In this document: piece after piece, positions 54,335 to 62,481 of the stretch | Position numbering within the stretch: the first letter of the stretch is position 1 | Layout of the letters: every line of letters starts with the position of its first letter | Source of the DNA: Flavobacterium cyclinae | GTDB taxonomy: Bacteria; Bacteroidota; Bacteroidia; Flavobacteriales; Flavobacteriaceae | Assembly (NCBI RefSeq): GCF_021172145.1 | Contig: NZ_CP089095.1 | Span: forward strand, 62,001 to 126,000 | Direction of reading: 5' to 3' | Length of the DNA: 64,000 nucleotides | Position numbers and translations under genes: made by a program | Notes under the pieces: model-generated | The model's database searches: none | The model's input: the letters and a program-made list of their open reading frames with translations, nothing else | Told to the model about the DNA's origin: nothing

Positions 54335-55339
54335 TTAACCATTGTTTTCTTTAATGGTTTCTTTTATTTTTTGTTCTAATTCATCCATTAATTCCGGATT
54401 GTCTTTAATTAAAACTTTAACAGCATCTCTACCTTGACCTAGTTTTGTTTCACCATAACTAAACCAAGAACCACTTTTCTTAATGATTTCAAAATCAACA
54501 GCTAAATCTAAAATTTCTCCTACTTTAGAAATTCCTTCTCCGTACATGACATCAAATTCAGCAGTTCTAAAAGGTGGTGCTACTTTATTCTTAACGATTT
54601 TAACTTTGGTTCTGTTACCAATTACGTTTTCACCATCTTTAATTTGAGTTGATTTACGAATATCAATACGAACCGAAGCATAGAACTTTAATGCATTTCC
54701 TCCTGTAGTAGTTTCAGGATTTCCAAACATTACTCCAATTTTATCACGTAATTGGTTAATGAAAAACACTGTACAATTGGTTTTGTGAATCGTTCCTGTT
54801 AACTTTCTCAACGCTTGCGACATTAAACGAGCATGTAATCCCATTTTAGAGTCTCCCATGTCACCTTCAATTTCGCTTTTTGGTGTTAAAGCGGCAACCG
54901 AGTCAACTACTACAATATCAACAGCTCCAGAACGAATTAAACTTTCGGCAATTTCTAATGCTTGCTCACCATTATCGGGTTGCGAAATAATTAAATTGTC
55001 AATATCAACCCCTAATTTCTCAGCATAAAAACGGTCAAATGCGTGCTCAGCATCAATAAATGCTGCAATTCCACCCGCTTTTTGAGCTTCTGCAATGGCG
55101 TGTAATGTTAACGTGGTTTTACCTGACGATTCTGGTCCGTAGATTTCTATGATTCTTCCTCTTGGGTATCCATTTACTCCAAGAGCTAAATCAACCCCTA
55201 ATGAACCTGACGGAATAGCTTCTACTTCTTCAACAGCGCTATCACCTAATTTCATTACGGTTCCTTTTCCGTACGTCTTGTCAAGTTTGTCTAATGTTAG
55301 TTGTAAGGCTTTTAATTTTGCGTCTTTATCTGAGCTCAT
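54335..55339 (-). CDS. recA: recombinase A
   Basis: RecA forms filaments on single-stranded DNA and drives strand exchange and repair. The 334-residue protein has the Walker A motif [33 protein letters not shown] (Walker B), the L1/L2 loops with [28 protein letters not shown], and the expected C-terminus with an acidic/lysine-rich tail. The start [12 protein letters not shown] at 55339 is chosen over an ATG nine codons earlier. I found no obvious SOS box before it. Confidence 0.96.
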
Positions 55340-55420
55340 AATAAAATATTTTTCGTAAAAATACATCTTTTTTTATTCGATACAAAAATTGTTAATATGT
55401 TTTGATGGGCTATTAAAGAT

Positions 55421-55535: not shown

Positions 55536-56894
55536 ATGCAACTGTATAACACTTTAAGCGCAGAAGAAAGAAAAGAGCTAATTGATTTAGCCGGTAAGCA
55601 ACGATTAACGTTGTCTTTCTATGCGTATGCCAAAATTGAAGATCCCAAAAAATTTCGTAATGATTTATTTGTAGCTTGGAATGCACTCGATGCACTAGGC
55701 CGAATTTACGTTGCTCACGAAGGAATTAACGCTCAAATGAGTGTGCCAGCAGAAAATTTTGAAGCTTTTCGCGAAACGTTAGAAGTCTATGATTTCATGC
55801 GTGGCATCCGATTGAATGTAGCTGTTGAACAAGATGATCATTCTTTCTTAAAATTAACCATTAAAGTGCGTCATAAAATTGTAGCTGATGGCTTAAATGA
55901 CGAAACTTTTGATGTTACCAATAAAGGGGTTCACTTAAACGCCAAATCTTTCAATGAAATTTTAGAAGACCCAAATACTATCGTAGTGGACTTCAGAAAT
56001 CATTACGAAAGTGAAGTAGGACATTTTAAAGGAGCAATTACACCAGATGTGGAAACTTTTAGAGAGTCTTTACCCATCATCAACGAACAATTAAAAGATT
56101 TTAAAGAAGATAAAAACTTGGTGATGTATTGCACAGGTGGAATTCGTTGCGAGAAAGCATCTGCCTATTTCAAACATCAAGGTTTTAAAAATGTATTTCA
56201 GCTGGAAGGTGGAATCATCAATTACGCCAAACAAATCAAAGAAGAAGGTTTGGAAAGCAAATTCATTGGAAAGAATTTCGTATTTGATAATCGTTTAGGA
56301 GAACGAATCACTGAAGATATTATTTCGCAATGTCACCAATGTGGGAAACCTTGTGACAATCATACCAATTGCGCTAATGATGGTTGTCATTTATTGTTCA
56401 TTCAATGTGACGAATGTAAAGCAGCTATGGAAAATTGCTGTTCAACTGAATGTTTGGAAATCACACATTTACCATTAGCTGAACAAGTAAAATTGAGAAG
56501 TGGTAAACAAGTTGGAAATAAAGTGTTCCGTAAAGGAAAATCAGAAGCTTTGAAGTTTAAAAAATCGGGAGAGTTACCTGATGCACCAATTGCAACTGTA
56601 AATCCGGTTAAAGACATTCGCCAAAAAATCAAAGAGAAAAAAGTGATTTTAGGGAAAGCACAACACTACTATGTAAAAGCTCAAGTAGGTCTATTTGAAA
56701 TTGAAAACAACGAATTGAATTTAGGAGATAAGATTTTAATTTCAGGACCAACCACTGGAAATGAGGAATTGGTTGTAGAAAAAATGTTCGTTAATGGAAC
56801 CGAAGCCAATCAAGCAAAACCCGGCGACAAAGTAACATTTGCCTTGCCATTTAGAGTGCGATTATCAGATAAACTATTTAAAATCTTAAACTAA
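55536..56894 (+). CDS. trhO: oxygen-dependent tRNA uridine(34) hydroxylase TrhO with extra U32 C-terminal domain
   Basis: TrhO (YceA) uses oxygen to hydroxylate U34 of tRNAs to ho5U. The 452-residue protein has the N-terminal acylphosphatase-like domain (residues 1-130, VAHEGINAQMS), a rhodanese domain with the active-site loop MYCTGGIRCEKAS (Cys-199), and a Cys-rich rhodanese C-terminal part (CHQCGKPCDNHTNC, CDECKAAMENCCS). Escherichia coli TrhO is about 350 residues; here about 86 residues are added after residue 366. That tail is homologous to the C-terminal domain of TrhP, the next gene, with about 42 of 86 positions identical by eye. The stop overlaps the trhP ATG (TAATG). Confidence 0.93.
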   Translation: MQLYNTLSAEERKELIDLAGKQRLTLSFYAYAKIEDPKKFRNDLFVAWNALDALGRIYVAHEGINAQMSVPAENFEAFRETLEVYDFMRGIRLNVAVEQDDHSFLKLTIKVRHKIVADGLNDETFDVTNKGVHLNAKSFNEILEDPNTIVVDFRNHYESEVGHFKGAITPDVETFRESLPIINEQLKDFKEDKNLVMYCTGGIRCEKASAYFKHQGFKNVFQLEGGIINYAKQIKEEGLESKFIGKNFVFDNRLGERITEDIISQCHQCGKPCDNHTNCANDGCHLLFIQCDECKAAMENCCSTECLEITHLPLAEQVKLRSGKQVGNKVFRKGKSEALKFKKSGELPDAPIATVNPVKDIRQKIKEKKVILGKAQHYYVKAQVGLFEIENNELNLGDKILISGPTTGNEELVVEKMFVNGTEANQAKPGDKVTFALPFRVRLSDKLFKILN

Positions 56895-58135
56895 TGACAA
56901 CTACAGGAAGAATTGAATTAATGGCGCCTGCCGGTAATTTCGAATCGCTTCAGGCGGCATTAGATAATGGTTGTGATTCTGTTTATTTTGGTGTCGAACA
57001 ATTAAATATGCGCGCTCGAGCAACAGTAAATTTCGTTTTAGATGATTTACCAGAAATTGCGCGTCGTTGTAACGAAAAAAATGTTAGGACGTATCTAACT
57101 TTAAATACGATTATTTACGATCATGATTTATCGATTGTAAAAACACTTTTAACCAAAGCCAAAGAAGCAGGAATTACAGCCGTAATTGCCTCAGACCAAG
57201 CCGTTATTATGACGGCTCGCACTATGGGGATGGAAGTACACATTTCCACTCAATTGAATGTAACGAACATCGAAACTGTAAAATTCTATGCGATGTTTGC
57301 CGATACAATTGTATTATCTCGCGAGTTGAGTTTACGTCAAGTAAAGAAAATCACAGATGATATCGAAAAAGAACAAATCAAAGGGCCAAGCGGCAATTTA
57401 GTTGAGATTGAAATCTTTGGTCACGGCGCTTTGTGTATGGCCGTTTCTGGAAAATGTTATTTGAGTTTGCATTCGCATAATTCATCGGCAAATCGTGGTG
57501 CTTGCAAACAAAATTGTCGTAAAAAATACACGGTAATCGACCAAGAAAGTGGTTTTGAAATCGAAATCGATAACGAATACATGATGTCGCCAAAAGATTT
57601 ATGTACGTTAGATTTTCTGGATCAAGTTATCGATTCTGGAATAAAAGTATTGAAAATTGAAGGTCGAGGAAGAGCCGCTGATTATGTGGCAACCGTTATC
57701 AAAACCTATCGCGAAGCAATTGATTCCTATTACGAAGGAACCTTCACTAAAGAAAAAATTCAAACTTGGATGGAAGCTTTGGCAACGGTTTACAATCGTG
57801 GCTTTTGGAGCGGTTATTATTTGGGACAAAAATTAGGCGAATGGTCTGATAATCCAGGTTCTAATGCGACTCAGAAAAAAGTGTACGTTGGAAAAGGTAT
57901 GCATTATTTCCCAAAATCAAGCATCGCCGAATTCAAAATTGAAGCTTACGATATTAAAAAAGGCGATAAAATTTTAATTACAGGTCCATCAACAGGAGCG
58001 CAAGAATTAATTTTAGAAGATTTCTTTGTGAATGACGTAACTTCTGAAAAAGCAACCAAAGGCGATAGTTGCACTTTGAAAGTGCCGTTCCGCATTCGTT
58101 TGTCAGACAAAATGTATAAAATTGTAGAAAACTAA
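56894..58135 (+). CDS. trhP: prephenate-dependent tRNA uridine(34) hydroxylase TrhP (peptidase U32 family)
   Basis: TrhP (YegQ) is the alternative, oxygen-independent route to ho5U34 in tRNA and depends on prephenate and iron-sulfur metabolism. The 413-residue protein has the U32 start ELMAPAGNFESLQAALDNG, the FGHGALCMAVSGKCYLS and NRGACKQNCRKKY Cys motifs, MSPKDLCTLDFLD and LKIEGRGR. The C-terminal domain (about residues 328-413) is the U32 C-terminal beta domain that also ends TrhO. Despite the family name no peptidase activity is expected. The start overlaps trhO and the stop overlaps the ferredoxin gene, each by one base. Confidence 0.93.
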   Translation: MTTTGRIELMAPAGNFESLQAALDNGCDSVYFGVEQLNMRARATVNFVLDDLPEIARRCNEKNVRTYLTLNTIIYDHDLSIVKTLLTKAKEAGITAVIASDQAVIMTARTMGMEVHISTQLNVTNIETVKFYAMFADTIVLSRELSLRQVKKITDDIEKEQIKGPSGNLVEIEIFGHGALCMAVSGKCYLSLHSHNSSANRGACKQNCRKKYTVIDQESGFEIEIDNEYMMSPKDLCTLDFLDQVIDSGIKVLKIEGRGRAADYVATVIKTYREAIDSYYEGTFTKEKIQTWMEALATVYNRGFWSGYYLGQKLGEWSDNPGSNATQKKVYVGKGMHYFPKSSIAEFKIEAYDIKKGDKILITGPSTGAQELILEDFFVNDVTSEKATKGDSCTLKVPFRIRLSDKMYKIVEN

Positions 58136-58365
58136 TGGTTGTTGTTACGCTTCAAAGAGACAAATGTATTGGTTGTAATTATTGTGTAGAAATGGCACCT
58201 GCTCAATTCCAAATGTCTAAAAAAGACGGAAAATCAGTATTAATTAAATCGGTTGATTCAAAAGGATTTCACTCCTTAAAATCACCTGATCATACCATTG
58301 TTGAAAATTGTGAATTAGCAGCAAAAGCTTGTCCAGTCCATATTATTACTGTAAAGGAAACATAA
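58135..58365 (+). CDS. 4Fe-4S-type ferredoxin
   Basis: The 76-residue protein has a CIGCNYC motif at residues 11-17 and a distal Cys pair in ENCELAAKACPVHI, the pattern of a monocluster bacterial ferredoxin. It is translationally coupled to trhP (TAATG), which suggests that it supplies electrons to, or otherwise serves, the iron-sulfur enzyme TrhP or TrhO; this is inference. A hairpin terminator follows 24 bases later, so it is the last gene of the operon. Confidence 0.88.
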   Translation: MVVVTLQRDKCIGCNYCVEMAPAQFQMSKKDGKSVLIKSVDSKGFHSLKSPDHTIVENCELAAKACPVHIITVKET

Positions 58366-58543: not shown

Positions 58544-59707
58544 ATGGCATGTACAAACTGTTCCACGGGTGCTAAAGACGGCACACCAAAAGGATGTAAT
58601 AATAACGGGACTTGCGGCACCGATAGCTGCAACAAACTTTCGGTTTTCGATTGGTTGTCAAATATGACGTTGCCGGGTGGTCAAGAACCATTTGATGCAG
58701 CTGAAATTCGTTTTAAAAACGGAAGAAAAGAATTTTTCAGAAATACTGAAAAGCTAACATTATCTATAGGAGATATTGTGGCTACTGAAGCTTCACCAGG
58801 GCACGATATCGGAATTGTGACTTTGACTGGCGAATTGGTAAAAATTCAAATGAAAAAGAAAGGCGAAAATCCGGATAAGGAATTGGCAAAAATCTACAGA
58901 AAAGCATCACAACGCGACATTGATATTTGGACAGAAGCTCGAAACAAAGAAGAATCGGTACGTATGCGTGCTAGAGAAATTGCAATTGATTTGAAATTGG
59001 AAATGAAAATTTCGGATGTAGAATTTCAAGGTGATGGTTCTAAAGCAACGTTTTATTACACTGCAAATGATCGAGTAGATTTCCGTCAATTGATTAAAGA
59101 ATTTGCTCAAGAATTCAAGATTAGAATTGAAATGAAGCAAGTAGGATTTCGCCAAGAAGCCGCTCGTTTAGGAGGAATTGGTTCTTGTGGAAGAGAATTA
59201 TGTTGTTCTACTTGGTTAACCGATTTTAGAAGTGTAAATACTTCGGCAGCGCGTTACCAACAATTATCATTAAATCCACAAAAACTAGCAGGTCAATGTG
59301 GAAAATTAAAATGCTGTTTAAATTATGAGTTAGATACTTATTTGGATGCTTTAAAAGGATTTCCCGATATGGATACAAAATTGTATACAGAAAAAGGAGA
59401 TGCTTATTGCCAAAAAGTAGATATTTTTAAAGAAATTATGTGGTTTGCGTATGCTAATGCTCCCGCTCAATGGTTAGTATTACCTGTAGCAAAAGTTAAA
59501 GAAATAGTAGCTCTTAATAAAAAGAAAGAAAAAGTAGCAGCTTTAGAAGATTATGTAGTGGAGAGTACGCGCGAAGTTGAGAAAAAATTTGAAAACGTTG
59601 TGGGTCAAGATAGTTTAACACGTTTTGATCAACCTAAAAAGAAATCGAACAATAGAAATAAAAAAAGGAAACCAACAAATTTTAAAAATGCACCTAAAAA
59701 AGATTAA
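58544..59707 (+). CDS. ricT: PSP1-domain iron-sulfur protein RicT (YaaT)
   Basis: The 387-residue protein starts with a Cys-rich N-terminus (ACTNCSTG, CNNNGTCGTDSC). A PSP1 domain follows, with IGDIVATEASPGHDIGIV near residue 75. Conserved Cys motifs are GGIGSCGRELCCSTWL and LAGQCGKLKCCLNYE. The C-terminus is basic and probably disordered. In Bacillus subtilis RicT acts with RicA and RicF in an Fe-S complex that affects RNA processing; those partners are not seen here. In Flavobacterium it lies upstream of gldH, as in this window. It overlaps gldH by 20 bases. Confidence 0.92.
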   Translation: MACTNCSTGAKDGTPKGCNNNGTCGTDSCNKLSVFDWLSNMTLPGGQEPFDAAEIRFKNGRKEFFRNTEKLTLSIGDIVATEASPGHDIGIVTLTGELVKIQMKKKGENPDKELAKIYRKASQRDIDIWTEARNKEESVRMRAREIAIDLKLEMKISDVEFQGDGSKATFYYTANDRVDFRQLIKEFAQEFKIRIEMKQVGFRQEAARLGGIGSCGRELCCSTWLTDFRSVNTSAARYQQLSLNPQKLAGQCGKLKCCLNYELDTYLDALKGFPDMDTKLYTEKGDAYCQKVDIFKEIMWFAYANAPAQWLVLPVAKVKEIVALNKKKEKVAALEDYVVESTREVEKKFENVVGQDSLTRFDQPKKKSNNRNKKRKPTNFKNAPKKD

Positions 59708-60185
59708 TTTTATCATTACACTTTTTGTCATCATGTTTTTTGTTTCTTGTGACAAAAAGCAATTTTTTAGCGAATATAAAGAACTTGATGGTACATGGAA
59801 AAAAGCGGATACATTACGATTTACTTTTGATCAAAATGATACAGTAAATCCATATCATTTGTTTCTAAATGTTAGAAATAATAATGATTATCCTTTTAGC
59901 AATATGTACTTGATTGTAACTATGAAAGAACCGGGGAAAAACCCAACAATTAAAGTAGATACATTAGAATATCTTATGGCAAATCCAGATGGAACTTTGT
60001 TAGGTGAAGGTTTTTCAGACATTAAAGAAAGTAAATTGTGGTATTTAGAAAATTTCAAGTTCAAGAAAGCTGGAAAGTATAATGTGGAAGTAGTTCAGGC
60101 TGTAAGGGAACTAGGAAAAGTAGAGGGTGTAGCAGAATTAAAAGGGATTACAGAATTAGGATTAAGAATCGAAAAAATAAATTAG
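59688..60185 (+). CDS. gldH: gliding motility lipoprotein GldH
   Basis: GldH is a lipoprotein needed for gliding motility in Flavobacterium johnsoniae and is linked to the type IX secretion and SprB adhesin machinery. The 165-residue protein has a signal peptide with lipobox FVSC at Cys-20. The mature chain has SEYKELDGTWKKADTLRFTF and FSNMYLIVTMKEPG, as in GldH. The start was placed at the ATG just before the signal peptide, inside the end of ricT; translational coupling is likely. It supports placing the organism among gliding Bacteroidota. Confidence 0.9.
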   Translation: MHLKKINFIITLFVIMFFVSCDKKQFFSEYKELDGTWKKADTLRFTFDQNDTVNPYHLFLNVRNNNDYPFSNMYLIVTMKEPGKNPTIKVDTLEYLMANPDGTLLGEGFSDIKESKLWYLENFKFKKAGKYNVEVVQAVRELGKVEGVAELKGITELGLRIEKIN

Positions 60186-60186
60186 T

Positions 60187-62481
60187 ATGGCTACTAAAAA
60201 AGCAAATACAGACGATTTTTCTGAGTATAAAAGAAAGTTTTGGCAACTATTTGCCTATGGTTTTTTAGGGATAATTTTATTATTCTTATTTGCTTCATGG
60301 GGATTTTTTGGAAAAATGCCTTCATTTGATGATTTAGAAAATCCAGACTCTAATGTGGCAACTGAAATCATCTCTTCTGACGGAGTTGTTATTGGAAAAT
60401 TTTTCAAAGAAAATAGAACTCCAGTAAAATATGAAGAGTTACCACAACATTTAGTAAAAGCTCTTGTAGCAACTGAAGACGAACGTTTTTACGATCATTC
60501 GGGTATTGATGCAAAAGGTACATTACGTGCAGTAGTAAGACTTGGTAGAGATGGAGGAGCAAGTACATTAACCCAACAATTAGCAAAAAATCTATTTCAT
60601 GGAAGTGATGGGTCAAAATTTATTCTTTTTAGGGTAATTCAAAAAGTAAAGGAATGGATTATTGCAATTCGCTTGGAACGTCAGTATACGAAACAAGAAA
60701 TTATTGCACTTTATTTAAATCAAGTAGATTTTGTAAATGGTGCAGTTGGAATTCGTTCGGCAGCTAAAATCTACATGAATAAAGAACCAAAAGATTTAAC
60801 AATTGAGGAATCGGCTTTGTTTGTAGGAATGTTAAAAAATCCTTCGTTATATAATCCTAATCGTAAAAAACGCGCAGAATTGGTTCTAAATCGTAGAAAT
60901 ACAGTTTTAGGGCAAATGGTAAAAAATGGCGTTATTTCTGAAACAAAAAAAGCAGAATTAAGCAAACTACCTATTAAATTAGATTTTAGACCTGAAAGTC
61001 ACGCACAAGGAAGCGCAACTTACTTTAGAGAATATCTAAGAGATTACATGAAAAAATGGGTAAAAGACCATTTAAAATCTGACGGTACAGAATACGATTT
61101 GTATAGAGATGGTTTAAAAATTTATACTACTATCGATTCTAAGATGCAACAATATGCAGAGGAAGCGGTATACGAACATCTTAAAAATCTTCAAAAAGAA
61201 TTTTTTAAAGGAAAGAAAGATCAAGAAAATGCTCCTTTTGTTGATATTACTCCAGAACAAACCCAAAACATTATGAACCAAGCAATGAAAAACTCAGAGC
61301 GTTGGCGTAAAATGGATTTGAATGGAAAAACAAAAGAAGAAATAATTAAGTCTTTTGATGTGCCTGCAAAAATGAAAATTTTTACATACGATGGTGAAAA
61401 AGATACCATTATGACACCAAAGGATTCCATTATTTACTATAAACATTTTCTACAAACTGGAATGATGGCAATGGAACCTCGTACAGGTCATATTAAGGCA
61501 TGGGTTGGAGGTGTAAATTATAAATACTTCCAGTATGATCACGTAGGACAAGGTGCAAGACAAGTAGGTTCTACATTCAAACCTTTTGTTTATGCTACAG
61601 TAATTGAACAATTACAAATGTCACCATGTGATTCAATTATCGATAGTTATTTTACCATGCCAAAAGGGAGATGGGGAATTGATGCCGATTGGTCACCAAA
61701 AAATTCGGATGGCAATTATAGAGGAACCATTACATTACAAAAAGCATTAGCCAATTCGGTTAATACGGTTTCTGCAAAATTAATAGATCGAGTAGGACCA
61801 CAAGCAGTAGTAGATATGGCAAAAGAATTAGGAATTACTTCAAAAATTCCAGTACAACCATCTATTGCTTTAGGGGCAGTTGATATAACTGTTGAAGAAA
61901 TGGTGGGTGCCATGAGTACATTTGCCAATCAAGGGGTGTATGTTAAGCCTTCATTCATTATTAAAATTGAAGACAAAAATGGTGTAGTTTTAGATCAACC
62001 AATACCGGTTACTAAAGATGTGGTTAACAAAGATGTAGCTTTTGCAGTAGTTAAGTTAATGGAAGGGGTAACCCAATCAGGAACAGGTTCACGATTAAAA
62101 TGGGGAGGAGCAGGATTCCGAAATTATGATTATAGTTTTGGTAATCCAATAGCTGGAAAAACAGGAACTTCTCAAAATAATTCTGATGGATGGTTTATAG
62201 GCATGGTTCCAAATTTAGCCACCGGAATTTGGGTAGGAAATGAAGATAGAGCCGCTCATTTTAAATCTACTCATTATGGACAAGGTGCAACAATGGCACT
62301 ACCAATTTGGGGTATTTTTATGAAAAAATGTTATGCCGATAGTGATTTAGATGTATCAAAAGACCCATTTGAACGACCTGATGATTTAAAAATCAAGGTG
62401 GATTGTTGGACGCCTAAAAAAGTAGTAGATTCTACTGCTGTTCCAACAGATGAACCTGATATGAATGAATTTGGAATATAA
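60187..62481 (+). CDS. penicillin-binding protein 1A, bifunctional transglycosylase/transpeptidase
   Basis: The 764-residue protein has a short cytoplasmic part, one membrane segment at about residues 18-38, a GT51 glycosyltransferase domain (TEDERFYDHSGID with catalytic Glu, GGASTLTQQLAKNLF), and a transpeptidase domain. The latter has GSTFKPF (Ser-x-x-Lys), NSVN, and KTGTSQN. It polymerises and cross-links peptidoglycan at the inner membrane. Length and layout are normal for class A PBPs. It begins 2 bases after gldH and is likely in the ricT-gldH operon. Confidence 0.94.
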   Translation: MATKKANTDDFSEYKRKFWQLFAYGFLGIILLFLFASWGFFGKMPSFDDLENPDSNVATEIISSDGVVIGKFFKENRTPVKYEELPQHLVKALVATEDERFYDHSGIDAKGTLRAVVRLGRDGGASTLTQQLAKNLFHGSDGSKFILFRVIQKVKEWIIAIRLERQYTKQEIIALYLNQVDFVNGAVGIRSAAKIYMNKEPKDLTIEESALFVGMLKNPSLYNPNRKKRAELVLNRRNTVLGQMVKNGVISETKKAELSKLPIKLDFRPESHAQGSATYFREYLRDYMKKWVKDHLKSDGTEYDLYRDGLKIYTTIDSKMQQYAEEAVYEHLKNLQKEFFKGKKDQENAPFVDITPEQTQNIMNQAMKNSERWRKMDLNGKTKEEIIKSFDVPAKMKIFTYDGEKDTIMTPKDSIIYYKHFLQTGMMAMEPRTGHIKAWVGGVNYKYFQYDHVGQGARQVGSTFKPFVYATVIEQLQMSPCDSIIDSYFTMPKGRWGIDADWSPKNSDGNYRGTITLQKALANSVNTVSAKLIDRVGPQAVVDMAKELGITSKIPVQPSIALGAVDITVEEMVGAMSTFANQGVYVKPSFIIKIEDKNGVVLDQPIPVTKDVVNKDVAFAVVKLMEGVTQSGTGSRLKWGGAGFRNYDYSFGNPIAGKTGTSQNNSDGWFIGMVPNLATGIWVGNEDRAAHFKSTHYGQGATMALPIWGIFMKKCYADSDLDVSKDPFERPDDLKIKVDCWTPKKVVDSTAVPTDEPDMNEFGI

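Follow-up and report, generated by a model that had tools for sequence, protein, structure and literature searches.

We analyzed a window of 64,000 nucleotides from Flavobacterium cyclinae (NCBI RefSeq assembly GCF_021172145.1, contig NZ_CP089095.1, positions 62,001 to 126,000 of the forward strand; the host genome is a single contig of 3.02 Mb). Three consecutive genes in this window encode TrhO, a predicted oxygen-dependent hydroxylase of tRNA uridine 34 (U34), a protein of the U32 family, and a small ferredoxin, with a TAATG overlap of one base at each of the two junctions. The C-terminal tail of TrhO and the C-terminal domain of the neighboring U32 protein are homologous. The genes and their relevant parts are:

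55536-56894, + strand: trhO, 452 amino acids; TrhO core (residues 1 to ~345), linker, and C-terminal U32_C-like domain
56574-56636, + strand: linker between core and tail, residues ~347-367, with low model confidence
56637-56891, + strand: TrhO tail, a U32_C-like beta-barrel, residues 368-452 (~86 residues)
56894-58135, + strand: U32-family protein, TrhP-like, 413 amino acids; PF01136 domain and C-terminal barrel; possible ortholog of TrhP
57875-58132, + strand: U32-protein tail, a homologue of the TrhO tail; fold match 4he5
58135-58365, + strand: small [4Fe-4S] ferredoxin, 76 amino acids; Fer4_13 match; genetically tied to the U32 gene

The homology of the two tails was evident with single sequences and with profiles. 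BLASTP aligned the TrhO tail with the U32 tail at 95.5 bits (E 9e-26, 46 of the 110 positions in the alignment identical), and a comparison of 19 TrhO tails with 22 U32 tails using hhalign gave a probability of 100 (E 3.3e-42, 46% identity over 89 columns). The shared domain had been proposed from the sequence of the window, with about 42 identical positions counted by eye, and these comparisons confirm the domain and are in line with the count. A genome-wide search with the TrhO tail at E ≤ 0.001 recovered the two copies and no third. The original prediction had also called the tail PF16325-like. The likeness in fold stands, but the Pfam model does not reach its cut-off on the TrhO tail (16.5 vs 28.2 bits) and gave no match at E ≤ 0.1 to the tail of the U32 protein itself, so that the identity of the domain is based on homology and fold.

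The predicted structures of the two tails matched the same crystal structure, the U32 C-terminal domain in 4he5, with a root-mean-square deviation (rmsd) of 1.2 Å across 80 residues (for the U32 tail, TMt 0.87 and rmsd 1.2 Å). After this domain, the IF2 C-terminal domain and eEF1A were among the best fold matches. In a profile search by sequence EF-Tu came first, at an E-value that was not significant (0.049), and no significant match came from sequence searches of the Protein Data Bank (PDB), either with single tails or with the complete U32 protein. The model of TrhO had a predicted local distance difference test score (pLDDT) of 75.8 and a predicted template modeling score of 0.59, with pLDDT below 50 at residues 344-346 and 357-366. 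One of 240 listed TrhO proteins (P0231) bears a precomputed Pfam assignment to PF03144 (EF-Tu domain 2), which hints at the kind of barrel that the TrhO tail may be.

The tailed protein is a new variant of TrhO. Its core scored above the cut-off of the NCBIfam TrhO equivalog model NF001133 (263.9 vs 170 bits) and was 52% identical to E. coli TrhO across 334 amino acids, the alignment stopping at residue 335. The rhodanese-type loop CTGGIRC is the same in both proteins, and its C199, presumably the catalytic residue of TrhO, was invariant in 50 aligned sequences. The protein is predicted to hydroxylate U34 in an O2-dependent manner. E. coli TrhO (350 amino acids) has no tail, and the profiles of the two tails match; neither of the two outcomes named as refuting the original prediction was observed. 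Most untailed TrhO proteins of the same family end at 342-346 amino acids and a few at 354-357, approximately at the position of the linker, indicating that the tail was appended behind an ordinary C-terminus.

Tailed TrhO had a restricted distribution. In a survey of 395 genomes of the phylum, with tails counted among the TrhO matches listed, TrhO aligned through the tail in at least 33: all 24 genomes of the same genus, all 8 of the Chryseobacterium type, and 1 of the 17 that belong to other genera in the family. By Chryseobacterium type we mean a second family of the order, one protein of which was nearest to Chryseobacterium, Elizabethkingia, Kaistella and similar names. Fifteen other genomes of the same family had an untailed TrhO of 342-357 amino acids, and one (G296) had no TrhO match beyond the level of the tail. 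These untailed relatives, together with the E. coli protein, exclude a tail universal in TrhO. Mapped over Bacteroidota, the tail is thus confined, among the matches listed, to Flavobacterium, the Chryseobacterium type and one other genome of the Flavobacteriaceae. The nearest named relatives of the window TrhO among the matches listed were Flavobacterium proteins.

The tail was most likely gained once, from a U32 tail of the Flavobacterium lineage. In a quick-method tree built from 67 TrhO cores without the columns of the tail, the 33 tailed proteins made up one side of a branch with a support of 99 in the Shimodaira-Hasegawa-like approximate likelihood ratio test. In a tree of 62 tails, from which six long U32 rows of the original 68 had been dropped (E. 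coli TrhP, G001, G032, G019, G009 and G132), the 33 TrhO tails grouped as a single clade (98/89) within the U32 tails, next to those of Flavobacterium. Among loci from named genomes with both trhO and the U32 gene, 11 of 18 had an untailed TrhO (Tenacibaculum, Polaribacter, Winogradskyella, Lutibacter and others). Because trhO lies beside the U32 gene without a tail in these relatives, the donor was most likely the neighboring gene. An ancestral member of the Flavobacteriaceae would have had an untailed trhO next to a pair of U32 (TrhP-like) and ferredoxin genes; the last ~86 codons of the U32 gene would have been copied once, in the Flavobacterium lineage, and joined to the 3' end of trhO, and the tailed gene would later have reached bacteria of the Chryseobacterium type. 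In the core tree, TrhO of the Chryseobacterium type nests between deep and later TrhO of the same genus as the window, whereas the U32 proteins of the Chryseobacterium type cluster separately from those of Flavobacterium. The tailed trhO was therefore probably transferred between families on its own, with Chryseobacterium as the probable recipient.

Another route to the same protein, compatible with the function that we favor below, is a fusion of trhO with the 3' end of the U32 gene by internal deletion, which would have destroyed the U32 gene; genomes that have both genes would have regained a U32 gene later. It would account for the lack of a U32 match in 17 of the 33 tailed genomes, for the separate position of the Chryseobacterium-type U32 proteins despite the nesting of their TrhO, and for one genome (G068) that combines a deep-branching TrhO with a later Flavobacterium-type U32 protein. 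However, untailed relatives were without the U32 gene no less often (11 of 15 genomes of the same family), so the absence of this gene needs no link to a fusion, and we consider this route possible but somewhat unlikely.

The tail is kept by purifying selection. We estimated ratios of nonsynonymous to synonymous substitution rates (dN/dS) by the pairwise Nei-Gojobori method (NG86), using pairs with a dS of 0.1-1.5 in the core and below 2 in the tail. Over 128 pairs, the median dN/dS was 0.116 for the tail and 0.043 for the core. The U32 gene was present in 16 of the 33 tailed genomes and not found in 17, the best E-values agreeing. In the 19 pairs in which both genomes were without it, dN/dS was 0.135 for the tail and 0.066 for the core, indicating that docking of the U32 partner is not the whole function of the tail. 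A role solely in such docking was rejected given the 17 genomes without the partner, and so was the idea that the tail permits loss of the U32 gene, given the frequency of loss in untailed relatives. Twenty columns were at least 95% fixed both in the 33 TrhO tails and in 21 U32 tails, and the residue was the same in all 20; conservation per column was correlated between the two sets (Spearman 0.53). The jointly fixed residues include H377, R440, R442, K446 and K449. This pattern agrees with conservation of a single ligand, or of the fold alone. The TrhO tails were basic, with a median isoelectric point (pI) of 9.19.

The ferredoxin is most likely the partner of the U32 protein and not of TrhO. 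Its sequence contains a CxxCxxC...CP cysteine motif and scored above the gathering thresholds of Fer4_13 (46.8 vs 24.5 bits) and Fer4_15 (46.2 vs 22.4 bits). In 61 genomes searched whole at E ≤ 0.001, a homologue was found in 15, comprising 15 of the 18 genomes with the U32 gene and none of the 43 without it (Fisher 1.2e-11), and independent contrasts on the TrhO tree, with the ferredoxin scored in fetched loci, agreed in 11 of 11 cases (p 0.001). Its absence from all 43 genomes without the U32 gene led us to reject the ferredoxin as the electron donor of TrhO. The two genes overlap by one base in all 16 tailed genomes that have both. The junction between trhO and the U32 gene is variable: in the 16 tailed genomes with both in the locus, there was a one-base overlap in 4, a 6-nucleotide gap in 3 and gaps of 58-1682 nucleotides in 9. 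The TAATG coupling noted at both junctions of the window thus holds here, but the overlap of trhO with the U32 gene is not general. The co-occurrence, together with the constant overlap on one side and the variable junction on the other, ties the ferredoxin to the U32 protein, as had been suggested; it would serve this enzyme, probably as an electron donor or cluster helper. A literature search gave no support to the idea that the E. coli ferredoxin YfhL might aid U32 hydroxylases.

The linkage extends beyond trhO. We examined U32 loci from named genomes, taking the best 80 of 585 candidates; two of the genes were incomplete, leaving 78. Within ~340 nucleotides downstream of the U32 gene, 49 of these 78 loci had a ferredoxin gene, and in 31 of the 49 there was no trhO within the locus examined. 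Loci with the pair included Cytophagales, Saprospirales, Sphingobacteriales, Ignavibacteriota and Balneolota, and the ferredoxin was present in 1 of 17 loci labeled Bacteroidales.

The U32 protein resembles TrhP, the prephenate-dependent U34 hydroxylase, but does not warrant the name outright. It matched PF01136 at 237 bits, and in an alignment it retained E162, C170 and C177, residues that are essential in TrhP of E. coli according to PMC6599085; RlhA and UbiU of the same species retain them too, so they do not single out TrhP. The protein scored far below the cut-off of the NCBIfam TrhP equivalog model NF011996 (194.6 vs 534 bits), on which the RlhA-type protein of the same genome scored 174.5 bits, and was 27% identical to E. 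coli TrhP. According to section 9 of PMC6599085 (2019), trhP occurs for the most part in gamma- and beta-proteobacteria and in some desulfobacteria, and Firmicutes, some Tenericutes and Cyanobacteria have trhP1/trhP2; that section does not name Bacteroidota. A small tree of U32 proteins was unusable for placing the protein among the subfamilies, because long E. coli branches met in it. The original naming of this protein as TrhP reflects resemblance, in the U32 domain and the three residues, and fails at the cut-off and the level of identity. That the U32 protein does the same job as TrhO is supported only indirectly, by a complementary distribution. Among genomes of the class, the U32 gene was present in 8 of 8 without TrhO and in 25 of 90 with it, and none of the 98 lacked both (Fisher 9e-5, uncorrected for relatedness); some genomes beyond the class had neither (for example G003, G014 and G018). 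Prephenate-dependent formation of 5-hydroxyuridine at position 34 (ho5U34) is a putative activity of the U32 protein.

Other genes of the genome bear on RNA modification. The RlhA-type U32 protein contains DUF3656. One strong PF01596 O-methyltransferase (L230:1492-2163), beside a gene that we take to be rlmN-like, is a candidate TrmR, which would convert ho5U34 to 5-methoxyuridine (mo5U34). No CmoB was found in the genome above the cut-off, and with the candidate TrmR this suggests that the end product may be mo5U rather than uridine 5-oxyacetic acid (cmo5U).

We favor the view that the tail is a captured tRNA-docking barrel, so that one hydroxylase reuses the docking device of another to which it is chemically unrelated, and regard this as probable, with some reserve. 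In TrhO as in the U32 protein, the tail would form a beta-barrel of the translation-factor type, and it would keep the substrate tRNA in place during hydroxylation of U34 by the TrhO head. In translation factors, barrels with this fold handle tRNA, and tRNA is the substrate proposed to be common to both enzymes, which together favor tRNA docking. By analogy of fold, and given the basic TrhO tails and the fixed residues shared with the U32 tails, the tail may bind tRNA; since the U32 enzyme is often missing, its ligand cannot always be that enzyme. The earlier picture of two catalytic heads sharing one docking part is kept in its architecture, two heads and one tail, with the amendment that it must allow for the many tailed genomes without a match to the U32 partner.

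Several observations weigh against this view. B. subtilis TrhO, as given in the entry 9j5o, binds tRNA-Ala with a chain too short for the tail, which is thus unnecessary for tRNA binding as such and could only add to binding or alter the range of tRNAs. Absence of the U32 gene is not more common in tailed genomes (17 of 33) than in untailed ones of the same family (11 of 15). The tail is under weaker constraint than the core, the residues fixed in both sets of tails may be conserved because of the fold, and the U32 tails, from which it supposedly came, are less basic, with pI values of 6.13-9.36 and a median of 8.15. The modest confidence of the TrhO model does not fix the position of the tail relative to the active site. 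A linked ferredoxin was absent from 3 of the 18 genomes with the U32 gene and from 29 of the 78 named loci. In a free tree of all 68 tails rooted on E. coli, the TrhO tails were not on one side of a branch. We discarded that tree, which had two terminal branches of length 10; when the TrhO tails were constrained to stay together, the log-likelihood was 6.02 better (approximately unbiased test, p-AU 0.662).

Barrels of translation factors also contact ribosomes and proteins, and the tail could accordingly be a protein-protein module for dimerization of TrhO, or for its recruitment to the ribosome or another partner, without touching tRNA; its attachment by a low-confidence and probably flexible linker would suit such a module. 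The obvious partner would be the U32 enzyme, yet the tail is still constrained where that enzyme is absent, and the identity of the residues fixed in both tails fits one shared ligand, although it may reflect the shared fold only. We consider a protein module unlikely. That the tail is a harmless, folded by-product of gene fusion in the operon, kept only against aggregation, would agree with a single event, probably next to the donor gene, and with the more relaxed evolution of the tail compared to the core. Such a by-product would not be expected to have invariant residues in common with the donor tail, to occur in every genome of the same genus and of the Chryseobacterium type, or to stay below a dN/dS of 1 in all the pairs selected (at most 0.43 over the 128 pairs), and we find it quite improbable.

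If the tail is a tRNA-docking barrel, what it adds could be substrate range. A passage of PMC6599085 reports that loss of trhP in E. coli reduced modification of tRNA-Leu3 and tRNA-Pro3 to less than 5% of wild type and that of tRNA-Ala1 and tRNA-Val1 to about half, and this tRNA-specific effect makes the range of tRNAs a concrete prediction. Capture of the U32 tail might have given TrhO the wider range of TrhP-type enzymes, so that a single oxygen-dependent enzyme could modify the whole set of U34 family-box tRNAs. The U32 gene is, as noted, missing at least as often from untailed relatives, and we hold this extension to be doubtful. If true, it would mean that substrate range in tRNA modification can pass between unrelated enzymes by domain capture.

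The genes around the three described above are as follows. Upstream of trhO and divergent from it is a presumably recA-like gene (54335-55366), with a homologue in 14 of 80 fetched loci, tailed and untailed alike. The next gene past the ferredoxin (58544-59707) encodes RicT, by its description a regulatory iron-sulfur complex subunit (258 bits with the NCBIfam model RicT_YaaT, which has a cut-off of 70), and a homologue was present in 28 of the 80 fetched loci, mostly downstream of trhO or the ferredoxin gene. It is followed by genes for the gliding-motility lipoprotein GldH (59625-60185) and a transglycosylase/transpeptidase penicillin-binding protein (60187-62481). Compared to genome G057, the U32 core was 98.8%, the ferredoxin 97% and the TrhO core 93% identical, which suggests that the U32-ferredoxin pair may have recombined separately from trhO.

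The domain transplant is real and occurred between two unrelated enzymes encoded side by side; it was most likely acquired once and then kept by selection. In the open-licence literature searched (titles, starts of abstracts and some passages) we met no description of tailed TrhO or of this ferredoxin link, and neither a function assigned to the U32 C-terminal domain nor an identified redox partner for U32 RNA hydroxylases. A natural transplant between unrelated enzymes that probably make the same modification is a direct test of the role of the domain, and a tail most likely copied from an unrelated neighbor suggests a single substrate-handling part common to two different enzymes. The tie between ferredoxin and U32 genes, within and beyond Bacteroidota, points to a candidate redox partner.

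The proteins of the window can be compared to several known systems. TrhO (YceA/YbfQ), the oxygen-dependent tRNA U34 hydroxylase, is like the window protein in its core score, sequence identity and CTGGIRC loop; the E. coli protein differs in ending before the tail. The chain of B. subtilis TrhO solved with tRNA-Ala has, in the entry, 352 residues, 317 of them modeled, with no room for a tail. TrhP (YegQ) and TrhP1/TrhP2 (YrrO/YrrN), which are prephenate-dependent, share with the window U32 protein the U32 domain, the C-terminal domain and the three residues of E. coli TrhP. The window type differs, in a comparison with E. coli TrhP only, in the missed cut-off, the low identity, its usual linkage to a ferredoxin, and its distribution. 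In the U32 protein of Geobacillus thermoleovorans (PDB 4he5/4he6), the C-terminal domain has the same fold as both modeled tails at 19-22% identity; there it belongs to a U32 protein, whereas here it is also part of a rhodanese-type enzyme. The tails match the beta-barrels of translation factors (the IF2 C-terminal domain and domain 2 of EF-Tu/eEF1A) at 8-22% identity and, unlike those factors, have no GTPase.

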